Positions 5,605-60,474 of a stretch of DNA of 64,000 nucleotides are shown here, piece after piece (the first letter of the stretch is position 1; each line of letters begins with the position of its first letter). The notes beneath the pieces were generated by a model. It saw nothing but the letters and a program-made list of their open reading frames with translations, was not told the origin of the DNA and made no database searches. The position numbers were made by a program, and so were the translations under genes. The stretch is taken from contig NZ_CP075171.1 in assembly GCF_021379005.1 (NCBI RefSeq), positions 1,674,001-1,738,000 on the forward strand. The letters are read 5' to 3'. The stretch is from Leptodesmis sichuanensis A121 (GTDB lineage: Bacteria > Cyanobacteriota > Cyanobacteriia > Leptolyngbyales > Leptolyngbyaceae).

Positions 5605-6690
5605 TTAGAGGTTTCCTCGGGCGGCTTGTTCCCGCTCCAGGGCTACAAATAATGATTTAAAGTTTCCGGCTCCAAATCCTCGCGAGCCATGACGTTCAAT
5701 GATTTCGAAGAAGAGAGTCGGACGATCGCCCAGTGGCTTGGTGAACAGTTGCAGCAGGTAGCCATCCTGATCGCGATCGACGAGAATACCTAACTCAGCT
5801 AATTGCTCAACGGGAAGATGTAATTCTTTCACCCAGTCTTCCAACCCTTCGTAATAGGTTTTAGGAATGGGTAAAAACTCTACACCAGCCTGTCTGAGTT
5901 GAACTACCGTTTGCACAATATCTTCGGTTGCCAGTCCCAGGTGCTGAATTCCTGGCCCATAGTGGAAATCTAAATATTCTTGAATCTGAGATTTACGACG
6001 GCCTACAGCAGGTTCATTAATATTGATGATGGTTTTGCTGCCATTTTCCAGCACTTTTGACATCAATGCTGAGTATTCAGTAGAGATGGTGTGATCATCA
6101 AAGTGCATCCGCACATCAAATCCCAGAGTTTTGACAAAAAACTCCACCCATTTCTCCATTGCCCCCATTTCTACATTACCGACCACATGATCAACGTGCT
6201 TGAGGCCCATGGATTGAGCGGGAACTAATGAACGGGAGACAAATCCCGGAGCAAAGGCACCAGAATAATCACTACGATCGATAAATTTAATCAATGTATC
6301 TCCAAAGGTGCGAATAGCGGCATAACGCAATATTCCGTGTTCATCTTCCTGCTCGGTTGGAGGAATGGCCCCGATCGCGCCTCGTTCAACGGCTTGTCTG
6401 TAAGCCACAGGAACATTAGAGACTGCCAAAGCAATGATCGCGATCGTATCGCCGTGTTGTCTGACACTCTGAGCAATCTCATGGTCTGGACTGAGAGCAG
6501 AACTGAGAACAAAGCAAATTTCCCCCTGTTCGAGAACGTAGGAAGTAGTTTTCCGTTCACCCGTTTCTAATCCCCGGTAAGCGGTTTGAGCAAATCCAAA
6601 AGACCGCATATAAAAGGAAGCAGATTGCTTGGCATTCCCTACATAAAATTCCAGATGATCCAAACCTTTGATCGAATAACTTTGGCTCAC
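5605..6690 (-). CDS. hppD: 4-hydroxyphenylpyruvate dioxygenase (HPPD)
   Basis: Fe(II) enzyme that turns 4-hydroxyphenylpyruvate into homogentisate, the head-group precursor of tocopherol and of pyomelanin-type pigments. 361 residues with two vicinal-oxygen-chelate domains. The three iron ligands of the family are visible: His in LKHVDHVVG, His in PGIQHLGLA and Glu in LFFEIIERHG. The C-terminal GFGAGNFKSLF and EREQAARGNL favour HPPD over hydroxymandelate synthase. The start is GTG (6690), preceded by AAGGAG. It is first in a two-gene operon with tyrA and diverges from the NRPS gene across a 721-bp region, which suggests a link to the NRPS locus beyond vitamin E synthesis. Confidence 0.93.
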   Translation of the reverse strand: MSQSYSIKGLDHLEFYVGNAKQSASFYMRSFGFAQTAYRGLETGERKTTSYVLEQGEICFVLSSALSPDHEIAQSVRQHGDTIAIIALAVSNVPVAYRQAVERGAIGAIPPTEQEDEHGILRYAAIRTFGDTLIKFIDRSDYSGAFAPGFVSRSLVPAQSMGLKHVDHVVGNVEMGAMEKWVEFFVKTLGFDVRMHFDDHTISTEYSALMSKVLENGSKTIININEPAVGRRKSQIQEYLDFHYGPGIQHLGLATEDIVQTVVQLRQAGVEFLPIPKTYYEGLEDWVKELHLPVEQLAELGILVDRDQDGYLLQLFTKPLGDRPTLFFEIIERHGSRGFGAGNFKSLFVALEREQAARGNL

Positions 6691-7411
6691 AACAGCTTCT
6701 CCTTAAGCAATTAGATTGGGAAAGACAAAGATCGACAACAGGCGGTCTTTTCTCTGAGCTTTGATAAATGTTCTCTAAACCAAGTCCAGCTAGAGAACGA
6801 TCGTTTTCCGATCAGAGAAACTCCGGTTCTGGACTTAGACATGGCTTAACTAAGGTTCAGCCCCGAATGTATTCCAACTTCTTGAAGAACTACCAGTAGA
6901 TTTACGGAGTCTTCATTGAAGGTTGCCACTTGATTAAGCTTGCTCTCAATACCCCTGTAACCTACTCGGAATTCTCTCCACAGAGATGGAAACAATCCCA
7001 TTCACTTCTTGCTCTTTCCCTGAAATCTACTCTGCCAGGAGCCGAGGTCACTCCACTTAAATTCACTCATCTGCCGATGATTAGCTTTAACTCAGGCCAT
7101 ACTGCGGACGCGCATAGAATGCCATGTGTTATTCAATACCTCCCTAAATAAAAACTTTAAATTTTTCTACTTCGGATTTTCAGGATGATTCTGGCTAGAG
7201 GTATACAGGATTACCGTGATCAGCTTTCTTTCTCGGGTAAGGCCCAATACAATTCCGGAGATCCACGTATTACTTTCCGATGAAGTTTCTAAATAGTGCG
7301 CAATCTCCTTTGAAGAGCATGTTAAGTTAGCGGAACTACGGTGTTCATAACGGATGTCCTCAGTATTAATCCGGGCCAAACAGGTTTTTCCCAAAAAGTA
7401 GAGATTTGTGT
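6691..7411. promoter_or_regulatory. Divergent intergenic region between HPPD operon and NRPS
   Basis: 721 bp between divergent transcription units, presumably holding both promoters. It contains one copy of a dispersed structured repeat (6775-6850). Small open frames here (e.g. 6930-7151) have no ribosome-binding site or family resemblance and are not called. I found no clear -35/-10 pair or known operator. Confidence 0.5.
6775..6850. repeat. Dispersed structured repeat, copy A
   Basis: A ~75-bp element nearly identical to 36239-36314 and related to 60406-60474. It folds as an outer 8-bp stem (AAGTCCAG at 6782-6789 with CTGGACTT at 6829-6836) enclosing a small hairpin (GATCG at 6799-6803 with CGATC at 6809-6813). 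AGAGAA occurs on both sides of the inner hairpin. Confidence 0.85.
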
Positions 7412-10400
7412 ATGGCGAAGATGAATCAAAAGCAGCCCGTCGCTGGAGATATGACGGGGGTTTTTCAGGCGAAGGTGGAAACAATGAATGTAGCAGGTGC
7501 AATGGCTATTCAACAGCACCCCATCCATGTCAACGATCGCTTCCAGCCTGCAACCACTTATCCCCAATTCGGCAACTCAGACGCAGCGAGTCTACACCTG
7601 CCCAGCGATTTCCTCAAAACCCCCACTACGGGATATCAGGCTAAGTATCACCCGTTCAGTCTGTCTCCCACCCTGCTTGAATTTTCTAGAAGTACTCGTC
7701 TTAACGTGCGATCGCTACTCTTAGCAGCTATCAGTGCGGTACTGCATCGGTACACCCAACAGGAAACGATTTCCCTGGAGCTAAACCTTCCTCGCCAAAA
7801 AAATACAAACTATTACAAAACGGAACTTTTTACACATCTCGATAGTCAACTCAAAATTCAAGATCTGGTTAATCAAATTTCAGAGCGTTTAGATAATCTT
7901 GCACCTGCATTAAAGGAAGAGCCTGTTGCCGAACAGGGCGGTTTGCCATCCGATACTTCATCAGATCTACCCGTTGCTGTCACCTTTGTAGAAAACTTCC
8001 TGCGTGGGCAGGAGTCAGAACCCTGGCTGATAAAATCTCAGGCGGAACGCTCCCATGCTGCTCACTATCCAGATTTGCACCTGATCATGATTGAGCAGGA
8101 ACAGGGAATTTCAGGCTTGCTCAAATATAATGCTTGTCTGTTTAAGCCCGACACGATGCAGCGCCTGACCGGACACTTGCAACGGCTGACAGAGGCAATG
8201 ATTCAGGATCTGGGTTGCCCCATTGCCTATTTGCCGTTACTGACAGCGGCAGAAGAGCAACAATTGCTGGTGGATTGGAATAGCGAAACGGCTGACTATG
8301 AAGCCAGTCCTGTATTTTATGCGATTGAAGCTCATGCGGCAGAACAACCAGAGGCGATCGCAGTCACTTTTCAGGAGCAGCACCTGACTTATGCAGACCT
8401 GAACCAGCGGGCGAATCAGTTGGCTCATTACTTACGCCACCTGGGAGTCGGCAAGGAAGAACGAGTGGCCGTTTGTATTCAGCCCTCCCTGGATATTGCA
8501 GTCAGTCTGTTGGCGATCTTTAAGGCGGGTGGCGTGTACGTTCCTATCGATCCCACCTATCCGACCGAGCGGCTGGCTACCATCCTGGAAGATACCCAGC
8601 CCCAAGTTTTACTGACCCAGGCGCATCTGCTGCCCAACCTGCCCGCGATCGCCCAATATAGTTTTTGCCTGGATCAAGAGTGGCATACCCTAACATCCTT
8701 CCCCACGTCCAACCCAACTTCTGTGGTTCAGCCTGATCAACTGGCTTATCTGGTTTATACCTCTGGGACGACAGGAAAGCCTAAAGGGGTGATGGCCAGC
8801 CATCGGAATTTGATCAATTACATTCAGGTGGCTCAGGAGCGGTATCGCTTCGATCGGCACGACAGGATGCCTGCGATCGCCCGTTTCACCTTCAGCATTT
8901 CCCTGTTCGAGCTACTGTCGCCGCTGGTTGCTGGAGGAACGCTGCAGATTCTGGAACGGGAACATATTTTAGATTTCCGACGCATGATCCAGACTCTGGA
9001 GCAGGTAACAGTGATTCATACCTCACCCAGCCTGTTCAGGAAATTAGTTGAGTACATCAGAAGCAATCAGATAGACCTGCAAAAGTTTCAGCAACTTAAG
9101 CACGTCTCAACAGGGGGAGACATGGTTCCGGCAGATCTGCTGGAAGCCATGAAAGCAACCTTTCAGAATGCGGAAATCTATGTGATTTATGGTTGTAGCG
9201 AAATTAGCTGCATGGGCTGCACCTATCCTGTTCCCAGAGATCAGACCATTGATAAAAGTCGTGTCGGTAAGCCCTTCCCCAATGTTTCAGTGCGGCTGTA
9301 TGACCCTAACCAAAATCTGGTGCCGATCGGAATTGTCGGAGAAATTTATTTTGCCGGAGCCGGAGTCACCAAGGGCTATCTCAACCGGGAAGAATTAACT
9401 CAGGAAAAGTTCGTCGTCATTAACGGGCAACGGTTCTACCGCACGGGCGATATGGGCCGTTTCGATGCCGATGGCAATCTGGAAATTCTGGGCCGTTCTG
9501 ATTTTCAAATTCAATTGCGCGGAATGCGGATTGAATTAGGTGAAGTGGAGTTGGCATTACGGCAGGCTCCGGGGGTGCGGGATGGCGTGGTCATGGCTCC
9601 CGAAGTGGACGGGGAGAAAGCCCTGGTCGCTTATGTAGTTCTGGATTCAGCGCAGAAACCGACCCACGAGGAGTTGCGCCGCTTCCTCATGGCTAAATTG
9701 CCCGACTACATGGTGCCGACGCTGTTTATTGAATTGGAAGCATTACCGCTCAACATTAACCAAAAAGTTGATCGCCGCGCCCTGCCTGTACCGACCTCAA
9801 TGCGATCGCTCTCCACCAAGCCCTATGTCGCTCCCGAAACTCCCCTGGAACAAGCATTAGCAGACATCTGGGCACCCATTCTGGGCTTAGAGCAGGTGAG
9901 TGTGCAGGACGACTTTTTCAGCCTGGGAGGACACTCCTTGATGGCAGCACAGGTGCTTTCCCGGTTGCAGGAAACCCTGAATCTGGAAATTTCTATCAAC
10001 CGCTTGTTTGAATTCCCGACGATCGCCAGTTTGGCGGCTCACTTAGCCACATTAAATGCGGAGGATGCTGTTGATCAGGCGGCCCTAGCTCCTATCCCCC
10101 GTTCGGCCCATCTTCCCCTATCCTTTACCCAGTTGCGCTTCTGGTTCCTGGCTCAATTGGAAGAAGGAACAGCTTACAACATTCCCGTAGTCCTGCAACT
10201 GAGTGGCGCTTTAAATATTTCCTTGCTGGAGCGTAGCCTGACCGAAATTCTGAATCGCCATGAAGTTCTGCGCACGGTATTTCCTCAAGTGAATGGCACA
10301 CCAGTACAGGTCATCTTGCCACCCCAACCGTTCTCCTTACCGGTGATCGATGTGCCCGTTCTACCAGAGCCAGAGCAACGGGCAGAAGTTTATCGTCTGG

Positions 10401-13400
10401 CGCAAGCGGAAATTCAACAACCATTTAATCTGGCCCAAGATCTGCCCATTCGAGGCACTCTGTTGCGCCTCAGCAATACGGCTCATGTGCTGCTGCTGAC
10501 CATTCATCACATCGCTGCCGATGGCTGGTCTCTGGCTCTCCTGCGGCGGGAATTAGCCACCCTCTACACGGCCTTTTCTCAAGGTCTTGCCTCGCCCCTG
10601 GAAGCCATTCCTATTCAGTACGCGGATTTTGCCCATTGGCAAGACCAGTGGTTGCATAGTGAGCCTGTTCGCCAGCAATTAGCTTACTGGAAACAGCAAC
10701 TGGCGGGTGCTCCGGCCCTACTGGAATTACCCTGGGATCATCCCCGTCCTCCCCAGCAAACCTATCGTGGTGGCAGTGAATTCTTTACCCTCAGCCCTGA
10801 ACTGACGCAACAACTCAAAGCGCTCAGCCAAAAAGCCGGAGCCACCCTGTTCATGACGTTGCTGGCCAGCTTTGCCACTCTGTTATCCCGCCATAGTCAG
10901 CATCAAGATCTGGTGATTGGTTCCCCGATCGCCAACCGCCATCGCCGCGAACTGGAAGCGTTGCAGGGAGTCTTTATTAATCTGCTGGCCTTACGAGTGG
11001 ATCTGTCTGGCAATCCGGCTTTTCTGGAATTGCTGCAACGAGTCCGACAGGTAGCCCTGGATGCATTCGCTCACTCGGATATTCCCTTCGATCAAGTGGT
11101 TGAGACTTTACAACCCGAACGCAACTCCAGTTACAGTCCGCTGTTCCAGGTGCTGTTTGTCCTCCAGAATGCTCCTATCGATCACTTGGAACTGCCGGGG
11201 CTAACCGTTACCACCCTCCCCGTTGAAAGTGGTACCGCCAAGTACGATCTAACCCTGATGATGGAAGAAACAGCCAATGGCTTAACGGGTGAGTTGGAAT
11301 ACAACCGGGATCTGTTTGACCGGGCGACGATCGCTCGCATGGTCGGCCACTTCCAGACACTGCTGTCCGGGGTCGTCGCTCAACCCGAACAGCCGATCGC
11401 CACCCTCCCCATCCTGACTGCAAAAGAACGTCACCAACTGCTGGTGGAATGGAACAACACCCAGGCGAATTACCCCCATAACCGCTGTATCCATCACCTG
11501 ATTGAAGAACAGGTAAGACGCACCCCAGAGGCCATTGCCGCTGTTTTTGAGGATGAACAACTGACCTACCAGGAACTCAACGATCGGGCGAATCAACTGG
11601 CGCATTATTTGCAAAAGCTGGGAGTTGGCCCAGATGTTCTCGTCGGGATTTGTCTGGAGCGATCGCTGGAGACCGTAATTGGACTGTTAGGGATTCTCAA
11701 AGCTGGTGGAGCTTACGTTCCTTTAGATCCCAGCTATCCAGAAGAACGGCTGGCTTACATGGTTGAAGATGCCCGCTTGACAGTTCTGTTGACCCAACAT
11801 GAATTGAGATCCCGCTGCAGTAATCTGGCGACGCAGCAATCCTTAACCATTGTCAGTATCGATGATGATTGGGCCGCGATCGGTCAACAAAGCACAGCCA
11901 ATCCAACCACTTCAGTCACCACCAAAAACCTGGCTTACACCATCTACACTTCCGGTTCTACTGGAAAACCCAAAGGGGTACAACTGGAGCATCAGTCCGT
12001 CATTAATTTCCTGACTGCCATGAGCAAAGCACCAGGACTGACCGCAGACGATGTGCTCCTGGCTGTCACAACCATCTCGTTTGATATTGCAGGCTTAGAA
12101 ATCTACCTGCCGCTGATTCTGGGTGCGCGTGTCGTCATCGTCAGCCGAGAAGTGGCCTCGGATGGCAGTCGGTTAATGGACGAGCTATCTCGCACTCAGG
12201 CAACGGTGATGCAGGCAACTCCGATTACCTGGCAAATTCTCTTAGCCGCAGGCTGGCAGGGAAATCAGAACTTAAAGGCTCTTTGCGGTGGGGAAACCAT
12301 GACGCAAAAGCTGGCCGCCCAATTGCTCGATCGGGTGGGTTCTCTCTGGAATGTATACGGCCCAACAGAAACCACCATTTGGTCTACAGTCTGGCGCGTA
12401 GAGAGCGCAGCAGGCCCTATCTACATTGGCTATCCGATCGACAATACCCAACTGTATGTGTTAGATGCTCATCAACAGCCAGTGCCGATCGGTGTAGCTG
12501 GTGAGTTGTACATCGGAGGAGACGGATTAGCCAGAGGCTATCTCAACCGACCTGACCTCACGGCAGAACGCTTTGTGCCCAATCCATTTAGTCAGGATCC
12601 TGAATCCCGCCTGTATCGCACTGGGGATCTGGTGCGCCAGTTACCCGATGGCAAAGTGGAATGTTTGGGACGCATCGACCATCAAGTTAAGGTGCGGGGC
12701 TTCCGAATCGAACTGGGAGAAATTGAAGCGACTCTCAGCCAACATCCCCAGGTGCGGCAATGTGTGGTGATGGTACGGGAAGATCAACCGGGCGAGAAGC
12801 GCCTGGTGGGTTATGTGATTACGGGCACTCCCGATCCAGTTCCCGTTCAAAACTTCCGCCAGTTTCTCCAACAAACCTTACCGGACTACATGATTCCATC
12901 GGCCTTTGTGCAACTGGAGTTCTGGCCCCTCACCCCGAATGGCAAGATCGATCGCCGCGCCTTGCCCCTGCCAAAAACCTCTGACCTGGCGGCTCTTGGT
13001 TCCTGTATAGCTCCCCGTACCGGGCTGGAGCAGAAACTGGTGGAAATCTGGGAAGAAGTGCTGAACATTCAACCCATTGGGATTCATGACAATTTCTTTG
13101 ATCTGGGAGGCCATTCCCTGCTGACGGTGCGGTTATCGATTCAAATTGAGCAACGTCTGGGACAAAAGTTACCGTTGAGTGCCATCCTGACGGCCCCCAC
13201 GATCGCTCAACTGGCTGAAGTTCTGGATCCGACTCAATCCAGCACCCACCAGAATTCAGTGGTACTGTTGCGGCCAGGACAGGACGGTACTCCCCTATTT
13301 TTGATTCACGATGGAGATGGTGAAATTCTGCTTTATCGCTCTCTGGCTCAGCAGTTAGATCCATCGATTCCGGTGTACGGCATTCAACCCTATTGCACTC

Positions 13401-14218
13401 CGCAAGCTCCCATTCTGCATAGCCGGATTGAGGATGCGGCTACCTACTACGTCCAGCAAATTCGGGAAGTACAACCCCACGGCCCTTATTTTCTGGGAGG
13501 GATGTGCATCGGGGGAGCGGTGGCCCTGGCGGTGGCTCAACAATTGCAGCAACAGGGAGAAGTCGTCAAAATGCTGGCAATGCTGGATGCGGTGGATGTG
13601 GATACCCCACAACGGACGGGATACATTGCCAAGCAGCGGTTGAATAGTTTCTCAGCCCTATTTCATAGCAACTCTCATCTGAAACGGCACGAAAAACTGT
13701 TGCACACCGTGAACCAGATCCGGCAAAAAGTCACCAATTTAGTAGTTTACGAACTCCAGGAGAAAGCCGCGAACCTCCGCACCCAGATGCAACTATCCCT
13801 ATTCCGGTACTACCGGGATCACAATCTGGCCTTACCCAAATTCCTGCAAAACATCCCGGTTCGACGAGTATTGATGTGGGCCAAGCAGTCCCATACTCCA
13901 CAAGGAACCTTTGCAGGAGAGATTCTGCTCTTCCGGGCTACTCAAAAAAGTAGTGTGTTTGATGGTACCCAGATTGATGACACTCCCGGTATTGAAGTCT
14001 ACAGTGATCCACTGCTGGGATGGGGCAAACGAACGACTCAGGGCGTGCAGGTACATGATGTTCCGGGCGGCCACTCCAGTATGTTGCAGGATCCGAATGT
14101 GCAGGTGCTGGCTGAAATTATGCAGGCTTACATCGATGCCACGATCGCAGATCAACCAGCCTTCTCTCCAGTTCAGGGAACAACTGAATCTGCCCTGGAA
14201 CTCGTAAGCCGTGTCTAA
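7412..14218 (+). CDS. Two-module nonribosomal peptide synthetase: (C-half)-A-T-C-A-T-TE
   Basis: About 2268 residues from ATG 7412 (an earlier in-frame TTG at 7406 is less likely). Order by eye: C-terminal half of a condensation domain without HHxxxDG (~70-285); A1 (~300-815); T1 with GGHS, Ser842; full C domain with HHIAADG, His1032-1033 (~925-1350); A2 (~1375-1880); T2, Ser1902; thioesterase (~1985-2240) with Cys2032 in GGMCIGG, Asp2059 and His2221. Aligned to the GrsA pocket, A1 reads SIFHSGICMK: Ser495 replaces the Asp that holds the amino group, and the A5 motif is YGCSE, not YGPTE, so the substrate may not be an alpha-amino acid. A2 reads DILQLGVIWK, a glycine-type code. Expected product: an acyl- or aroyl-glycine type compound. 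Neighbouring aromatic-pathway genes suggest an aromatic starter (inference). No 4'-phosphopantetheinyl transferase or MbtH is nearby. Confidence 0.93.
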   Translation: MAKMNQKQPVAGDMTGVFQAKVETMNVAGAMAIQQHPIHVNDRFQPATTYPQFGNSDAASLHLPSDFLKTPTTGYQAKYHPFSLSPTLLEFSRSTRLNVRSLLLAAISAVLHRYTQQETISLELNLPRQKNTNYYKTELFTHLDSQLKIQDLVNQISERLDNLAPALKEEPVAEQGGLPSDTSSDLPVAVTFVENFLRGQESEPWLIKSQAERSHAAHYPDLHLIMIEQEQGISGLLKYNACLFKPDTMQRLTGHLQRLTEAMIQDLGCPIAYLPLLTAAEEQQLLVDWNSETADYEASPVFYAIEAHAAEQPEAIAVTFQEQHLTYADLNQRANQLAHYLRHLGVGKEERVAVCIQPSLDIAVSLLAIFKAGGVYVPIDPTYPTERLATILEDTQPQVLLTQAHLLPNLPAIAQYSFCLDQEWHTLTSFPTSNPTSVVQPDQLAYLVYTSGTTGKPKGVMASHRNLINYIQVAQERYRFDRHDRMPAIARFTFSISLFELLSPLVAGGTLQILEREHILDFRRMIQTLEQVTVIHTSPSLFRKLVEYIRSNQIDLQKFQQLKHVSTGGDMVPADLLEAMKATFQNAEIYVIYGCSEISCMGCTYPVPRDQTIDKSRVGKPFPNVSVRLYDPNQNLVPIGIVGEIYFAGAGVTKGYLNREELTQEKFVVINGQRFYRTGDMGRFDADGNLEILGRSDFQIQLRGMRIELGEVELALRQAPGVRDGVVMAPEVDGEKALVAYVVLDSAQKPTHEELRRFLMAKLPDYMVPTLFIELEALPLNINQKVDRRALPVPTSMRSLSTKPYVAPETPLEQALADIWAPILGLEQVSVQDDFFSLGGHSLMAAQVLSRLQETLNLEISINRLFEFPTIASLAAHLATLNAEDAVDQAALAPIPRSAHLPLSFTQLRFWFLAQLEEGTAYNIPVVLQLSGALNISLLERSLTEILNRHEVLRTVFPQVNGTPVQVILPPQPFSLPVIDVPVLPEPEQRAEVYRLAQAEIQQPFNLAQDLPIRGTLLRLSNTAHVLLLTIHHIAADGWSLALLRRELATLYTAFSQGLASPLEAIPIQYADFAHWQDQWLHSEPVRQQLAYWKQQLAGAPALLELPWDHPRPPQQTYRGGSEFFTLSPELTQQLKALSQKAGATLFMTLLASFATLLSRHSQHQDLVIGSPIANRHRRELEALQGVFINLLALRVDLSGNPAFLELLQRVRQVALDAFAHSDIPFDQVVETLQPERNSSYSPLFQVLFVLQNAPIDHLELPGLTVTTLPVESGTAKYDLTLMMEETANGLTGELEYNRDLFDRATIARMVGHFQTLLSGVVAQPEQPIATLPILTAKERHQLLVEWNNTQANYPHNRCIHHLIEEQVRRTPEAIAAVFEDEQLTYQELNDRANQLAHYLQKLGVGPDVLVGICLERSLETVIGLLGILKAGGAYVPLDPSYPEERLAYMVEDARLTVLLTQHELRSRCSNLATQQSLTIVSIDDDWAAIGQQSTANPTTSVTTKNLAYTIYTSGSTGKPKGVQLEHQSVINFLTAMSKAPGLTADDVLLAVTTISFDIAGLEIYLPLILGARVVIVSREVASDGSRLMDELSRTQATVMQATPITWQILLAAGWQGNQNLKALCGGETMTQKLAAQLLDRVGSLWNVYGPTETTIWSTVWRVESAAGPIYIGYPIDNTQLYVLDAHQQPVPIGVAGELYIGGDGLARGYLNRPDLTAERFVPNPFSQDPESRLYRTGDLVRQLPDGKVECLGRIDHQVKVRGFRIELGEIEATLSQHPQVRQCVVMVREDQPGEKRLVGYVITGTPDPVPVQNFRQFLQQTLPDYMIPSAFVQLEFWPLTPNGKIDRRALPLPKTSDLAALGSCIAPRTGLEQKLVEIWEEVLNIQPIGIHDNFFDLGGHSLLTVRLSIQIEQRLGQKLPLSAILTAPTIAQLAEVLDPTQSSTHQNSVVLLRPGQDGTPLFLIHDGDGEILLYRSLAQQLDPSIPVYGIQPYCTPQAPILHSRIEDAATYYVQQIREVQPHGPYFLGGMCIGGAVALAVAQQLQQQGEVVKMLAMLDAVDVDTPQRTGYIAKQRLNSFSALFHSNSHLKRHEKLLHTVNQIRQKVTNLVVYELQEKAANLRTQMQLSLFRYYRDHNLALPKFLQNIPVRRVLMWAKQSHTPQGTFAGEILLFRATQKSSVFDGTQIDDTPGIEVYSDPLLGWGKRTTQGVQVHDVPGGHSSMLQDPNVQVLAEIMQAYIDATIADQPAFSPVQGTTESALELVSRV

Positions 14219-20769: not shown

Positions 20770-20915
20770 AAATGGATGATCCGAAATGGCAGGCATCCTG
20801 GCTGATGAAGATGGTTCGTCATCCTCAATTACAGTTGCGGGACAGCGGTAGATTTACACTACTCTTTCCCTGTTTCCTCTAACGGCTGCTCCCCGTTAGA
20901 ACCAAATCGTGACTC
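20770..20915 (-). promoter_or_regulatory. Cobalamin riboswitch upstream of cbiMNQO
   Basis: On the minus strand the leader holds GGGAA at its 5' side, then a GTGTAA-containing segment, CTGTCCCGCAACTGT (20832-20847 region) and the B12 box AGCCAGGATGCCTGCC (20788-20803). These appear in the order and spacing of the cobalamin riboswitch aptamer. A paired arm CTAACGG / CCGTTAG lies at the 5' side. It should shut off cobalt uptake when adenosylcobalamin is plentiful. Boundaries are approximate. Confidence 0.9.
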
Positions 20916-21137
20916 TCAGCTTACCGTATTGCATGACTCCAGACAATGTTGCTTAACCCTTTGCAAGGTTGCTGAAATCAACCCCATCCATCACCCGATC
21001 GCCTCTCCCACCTATCCACTCACCGACCCACCCACTCCTCCACTCCTCTACTCGTTTCCCTTAACTGAATCTTTAGTTAGTTCCCCCACACCAACGGGCA
21101 ACTCTAAGGTGACACCCTTCCTCAGGCACCCGGTTTT
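20916..21137. other. Spacer between riboswitch leader and TPR gene 1
   Basis: Divergent region that should hold the promoters of cbiM (minus) and the first TPR gene (plus). A pyrimidine-rich stretch with repeated CCCAC/ACTCCTC units lies around 21000-21060. No gene seen. Confidence 0.4.
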
Positions 21138-36238: not shown

Positions 36239-36314
36239 CTAAACCAAGTCCAGCTAGAGAACGGTCGTTTTCCGATCAGAGAAACTACGGTTCTGGGCTT
36301 GGACAAGGTTTAAC
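36239..36314. repeat. Dispersed structured repeat, copy B
   Basis: Differs from copy A (6775-6850) at only about eight positions. The outer stem is kept with a G-T pair (CTGGGCTT in place of CTGGACTT) and the inner hairpin with a G-T pair (GGTCG / CGATC). It contains the stop codon (36285-36287) and last nine codons of the minus-strand histidine kinase. Confidence 0.85.
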
Positions 36315-60395: not shown

Positions 60396-60409
60396 TTAGT
60401 TCTAACTAA
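60396..60409 (+). promoter_or_regulatory. Candidate LysR-type (CmpR) operator upstream of cmpA
   Basis: TTAGTTCTAACTAA is a near-perfect palindrome of the form TTA-N8-TAA. CmpR, the LysR regulator of the low-CO2 cmp operon, is known to bind TTA-N7/8-TAA. It lies ~144 bp before the cmpA ATG and overlaps the start of repeat copy C. Single occurrence; chance match possible. Confidence 0.4.
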
Positions 60410-60474
60410 GGCCAGCTAGCAAACGTTGTTTTCTTACAAAAGAAACTCCGGTTCTGGACTTGGACAAGGTTTAG
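60406..60474. repeat. Dispersed structured repeat, copy C
   Basis: More diverged copy of 6775-6850. The right half (GAAACTCCGGTTCTGGACTT) matches copy A exactly. The inner hairpin is rebuilt with new bases, TTGT / ACAA in place of GATCG / CGATC, and the outer stem keeps seven of eight pairs. Confidence 0.75.

Follow-up and report, generated by a model that had tools for sequence, protein, structure and literature searches.

The window, by which the whole 64-kb stretch of DNA analysed here is meant (positions 1674001-1738000 of a single 5,348,817-bp contig, a 5.35-Mb genome), contains three copies of a short intergenic element, all on the plus strand. Copy A (6776-6848; 73 bp with the TA at either end included, flanks C-TA ... 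TA-A) lies between two divergent genes, an HPPD-like gene on the minus strand (5605-6690) and an NRPS gene on the plus strand (7406-14218). Copy B (36240-36312) is located where infB (IF-2) and a CHASE4 histidine kinase gene converge, between their 3' ends. Copy C (60403-60473; target context C-TA ... TA-G) is diverged, with small deletions that leave 71 bp, and lies between psbA (D1) and the gene for a CmpA/NrtA-like binding protein, 79 bp upstream of the start codon of the latter. The places given for the three copies in a preliminary description of this DNA were confirmed by a core 22-mer, which matched three times in the 64-kb window with up to 3 mismatches and not at all in 100 shuffles. 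Additionally, the end of copy B (36285-36312) encodes the last residues (..VKPCPSPEP) and the stop codon of the histidine kinase ORF. The divergent pair at 5605-14218 consists of an HPPD/glyoxalase-like gene and a large NRPS that ends in a thioesterase, and the only Rfam match of the window is a cobalamin riboswitch on the minus strand (20771-20921).

Aligned with other copies from the genome, the window copies define a 73-bp unit with the consensus TAAACCAAGTCCAGCTAGAGAACGGTCGTTTTCCGATCAGAGAAACTCCGGTTCTGGACTTGGACAAGGTTTA and without coding capacity. The terminal inverted repeats, TAAACC...GGTTTA with an inner GTCC/GGAC, are short (TAAACC is followed by a 2-base mismatch and then by GTCC), and 89.5% of their cells are paired; in copy B, the 3' terminal GGTTTA (36307-36312, plus strand) is the inverted partner of TAAACC at 36240-36245 and ends in the duplicated TA. 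The element had been described as having three copies, which holds within the window only, whereas a 25-base core has 212 matches in the whole genome when 2 mismatches are allowed and 247 when 3 are allowed, about equally on both strands, and the reversed core pattern used as a control gave no match in the genome. A profile search of 2.06 Mb, read as stretches and with double matches of the palindromic element merged, returned 115 full-length copies along with partial ones; by extrapolation, the whole genome would carry about 300 full-length ones. Few copies occurred in a further 400 kb, much of which is IS-rich DNA. Positions 900001-980000 and another set of stretches, several of them IS-rich, held no copies and are possibly younger or foreign DNA. 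Four copies are identical to the consensus and the others differ from it at up to 31 positions; the copies therefore differ in age and their insertion was spread over time. The element thus has the makings of a MITE, being short, non-coding, multicopy and dispersed (73 bp, an estimated ~300 intergenic copies) and bounded by terminal inverted repeats.

The distribution of the copies is intergenic: none of the 115 falls inside an ORF, as called crudely at 100 codons or more, whereas 78% of 75-base stretches placed at random do. Copies occupy tandem, divergent and convergent spaces without significant bias, and no orientation bias to the neighbouring genes was seen (71 same and 64 opposite on 5' sides, 46 and 39 on 3' sides). 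In 15 of the 115 copies, the terminal TAA of the element is the stop codon of the adjoining ORF. Since both ends read TAA inwards, a TAA or TAG stop codon that receives an insertion at its TA is still followed through as a stop, in the form TAA.

Elements of the same kind were found in other cyanobacteria. With the first model, one genome from the same family gave at least 107 copies, and three others gave at least 41, 24 and 15. An exact-pattern scan of 84,980 species, with one genome per species, matched only cyanobacterial records, including Leptolyngbya sp. PCC 6406, filamentous cyanobacterium CCP5 and the Leptolyngbyaceae MAGs RU_5_1, C42_A2020_001 and MO_188.B28. A search of the phylum with the first, narrow model missed most relatives that a broader model then found: of the 390 genomes sampled from the class, 71 contained related elements, representing 31 of 160 genera, and many of the 71 positive genomes had at least 12 candidates scored by the broader model. 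The consensus is lineage-specific, with each lineage having its own version.

The mode of insertion was examined through nested copies, empty sites within the genome and reconstructed targets. Two copies are nested within other, older copies (2100782 at ..GGTTC[TA]GATTTGG.. and 3620960 at ..CCAGC[TA]GCAGCC..), both at CTAG; IS630 reportedly prefers CTAG (Tenzen and Ohtsubo 1991, cited in PMC2170065). Imperfect 7-base tandem repeats (of the AAACTT/AAGTTTT and CCAAAATC types) are common in intergenic spaces and often host the element, for example around 1865552, 2063431 and 4726873. Several copies lie in 7-base repeats that occur elsewhere free of an insert, which provides empty sites within the genome. 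Across ten testable sites with repeats or other element copies as hosts, joins with one TA were compared with joins with no TA or two TAs and with joins displaced by 1 or 2 bases, and the one-TA join was the best ungapped match in eight; of the other two sites, one was ambiguous and one favoured a displaced join, for which a nearby indel is the probable reason. With one TA kept, the reconstructed targets of 80 clean copies form the palindrome A-N-Y-TA-R-N-T: A is found at -3 in 53% and T at +3 in 68%, each against a background of 27% (binomial p 1.6e-6 and 5e-14), and G at -1 and C at +1 are found in 1% each against 20% (p 7.5e-7 each). These one-TA joins and the TA-centred palindrome are what target-site duplication and single-copy empty sites of a MITE look like, and a TA duplication with a preference in the adjoining sequence (ANY-TA-RNT) is also the pattern of IS630/Tc1/mariner elements. 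Were TA cut in a staggered manner and then duplicated, as in the IS630/Tc1/mariner reaction (PMC2170065, PMC6400869), a preference symmetric about it would be the expected outcome, and TA duplication is a hallmark of the IS630/Tc1 mechanism (ISY100, PMC2170065). At one locus, a copy and the end of a resident IS630 element meet in a common TA.

All three window copies can form an outer stem, on the plus strand, between CCAAGTCCAG at 6780-6789 and CTGGACTTAG at 6829-6838 in copy A, between CCAAGTCCAG at 36244-36253 and CTGGGCTTGG at 36293-36302 in copy B and, with mismatches, between CTAAGGCCAG at 60406-60415 and CTGGACTTGG at 60454-60463 in copy C. This 10-bp stem is separated from the terminal repeats by 6 bp, and a 5' bulge interrupts it. 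It is genuine as previously described: across genomes, 92-93% of the cells of CCAAGTCCAG/CTGGACTTGG are paired and both partners have changed at 4 of the 10 pairs (mainly A-T to C-G and G-C to A-T), and structures containing it exceeded shuffled and slid controls, which leave relatedness in, in covariation score. The pairing of the element ends is likewise conserved between genomes but without covariation. Within the 115 copies of the genome itself, paired cells of the outer stem equalled those of shuffled columns at nearly all pairs, with no compensatory excess, and the terminal pairing gave hardly more paired cells than shuffled columns. Selection on structure had been proposed from covariation among the three window copies; the proposal thus holds for the outer stem between genomes but finds no counterpart in an excess among the copies of one genome. 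The inner hairpin GATCG/CGATC exceeded shuffling at 2 of its 5 pairs in the 115 copies, probably because of sequence subfamilies, and was absent from the elements of the relatives; it is specific to the subfamilies of this genome. The GATCG/CGATC hairpin is hence not conserved, and the wholesale replacement of the inner stem attributed to copy C rests on one diverged copy. The case for the two-stem fold as a whole is weak: the folding energy of plus-strand RNA clearly surpassed that of shuffles in copy B only (z -4.1, against -0.4 for A and -0.1 for C). When single-stranded DNA was folded, the stem formed both in this genome's consensus and in sequences of the type found in the relatives (z -2.6 to -6.0), and the inner hairpin is longest in relatives from another family. 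Covariation of the outer stem between genomes and not copy by copy fits a need during transposition better than a function exerted site by site; probably, it is the mobile master copies that maintain the structure, and not the individual sites.

A candidate mobiliser was sought among the resident transposases. DDE_3 (IS630-type) matches number 63 in the genome and mostly belong to multi-copy groups. None of the six IS630-type groups with resolvable ends carries TAAACCNNGTCC, and their ends differ from those of the element; some single-copy or partial DDE_3 matches had no resolvable ends and fell outside this comparison. No convincing pair of TAAACCWWGTCC ends without the element between them was present in 2.46 Mb (46% of the genome), and in eight related genomes the DDE_3 loci that were inspected showed no matching end pair either. 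One candidate from a related genome, a TTAAACCATGTCCAG motif close to an IS630 remnant, was rejected, having no matching second end and looking like a truncated copy. The genome has one Y1_Tnp gene, at 1409564; no full-length copy was found within 20 kb of it, the nearest being at 1386572, so that the flanking of a Y1 transposase gene typical of REP/REPIN-RAYT systems was not observed.

Combined, these results make it very probable that the element is a TA-targeting MITE of ~73 bp. It is probably moved in trans by a DDE transposase of the IS630/Tc1/mariner type, a mechanism that we infer from the target signature and not from a matching parent. Such a transposase would bind the ends, mobilise the element in trans and join it at TA; the hairpin may persist because it has a role in the transposition of active copies or is a product of it, and inserted copies would then drift. 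The small non-autonomous mobile element suggested in the preliminary description is therefore well supported by copy number, intergenic dispersal and nested insertions, and also by the one-TA empty sites, the symmetric target palindrome and the identical copies. The other option raised there, an RNA regulatory part, gained no support. A structured RNA or cis-regulatory element selected at each site (riboswitch-like, a leader, a terminator or an RNA-stability hairpin) would agree with a stem that covaries between genomes and with the location of copies A and C in 5' regions, yet it is highly improbable given the lack of an Rfam family, the balanced orientation, the absence of compensatory excess among the genome copies, whether in the terminal pairing or in the outer stem, and the spread of copies over tandem, convergent and divergent regions whose genes are unrelated. 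For single copies, a role as RNA regulator is unsupported but conceivable.

The mobiliser may also be of another kind. That a Y1 (RAYT/IS200-like) transposase moves the element in the form of a single-stranded DNA hairpin, as for REP/REPIN elements, has very little probability: the potential to form a single-stranded hairpin, the Y1_Tnp gene and a high intergenic copy number like that of REPs speak for it, but no full-length copy was found within 20 kb of that gene, the length and ends of the element are unlike those of REPs, and the symmetric TA-centred target with one-TA empty sites points to a staggered-cut DDE reaction. A possible, though less favoured, variant of the best explanation, differing in the mobiliser only, is a MITE moved by a TA-duplicating transposase outside IS630 or by one since lost from this lineage (an orphan MITE). 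It would account for the want of a match among the resident IS630 groups with resolved ends and for the wide, patchy distribution with a lineage-specific consensus; on the other side, the four identical copies suggest recent movement, and the end search extended to 46% of the genome. It is unlikely that the conserved stem itself is required for mobilisation, by a host-retained or other transposase common to many genera, which would make the elements a cyanobacterial mini-transposon superfamily. The IS630/Tc1/mariner-type MITE remains the preferred explanation.

The element had not been recognised as a member of a named family, and this assessment stands. Copies A-C had no Rfam match at the gathering threshold, nor had copy B at a lax threshold, and the sequence was not found in a relevant setting in the open-access literature, where short strings of it gave chance matches in unrelated fields only. 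As far as these tools show, the MITE is new in a known category within Rfam and that literature. A close parallel in form is RUP, an IS630-derived MITE with a TA duplication and ends in common with a resident IS630 element. The two are alike in being short, non-coding, intergenic and present in many copies, with TA flanks and terminal inverted repeats, and differ in that RUP has an IS630 parent sharing its ends, of which none was found here in 46% of the genome. The ERIC and NEMIS (Correia) elements are near-palindromic and intergenic, have TA at the insertion site and measure about 100-160 bp. They resemble the present element in the near-palindromic form of the whole, the TA site and the intergenic location, but they are larger, unrelated in sequence and from another phylum, and the conserved stem described here is set in from the ends. 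REP/REPIN elements with RAYT are likewise extragenic palindromes at more than 100 copies, whereas the present element lacks an association with a Y1 gene and has a TA-centred, palindromic target. The SDRs of cyanobacteria, reportedly described by Elhai and colleagues as small intergenic mobile repeats of 21-27 bp, are similar in kind to the 73-bp element but shorter. ISY100 of Synechocystis PCC 6803 (IS630/Tc1/mariner) targets and duplicates TA (PMC2170065), as does the element, and has a slight preference for A/T-rich sequence beside it (PMC6400869); it is autonomous, with 947 bp and 24-bp repeats, and the likeness lies in the target.

If the preferred explanation is true, one unnamed family of mini-transposons gave rise to hundreds of intergenic insertions per genome in some cyanobacteria, adjoining core genes such as psbA and infB and in some cases sitting at their stop codons. 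The wide range and lineage-specific sequences then raise the question of which transposase moves the element and whether the hairpin matters. Lastly, inverted adjoining copies at 3624022/3625275 and 4790208/4791242 share rare variants, suggesting gene conversion or local insertion; the genes they enclose are ordinary, and these pairs were therefore rejected as composite transposons.
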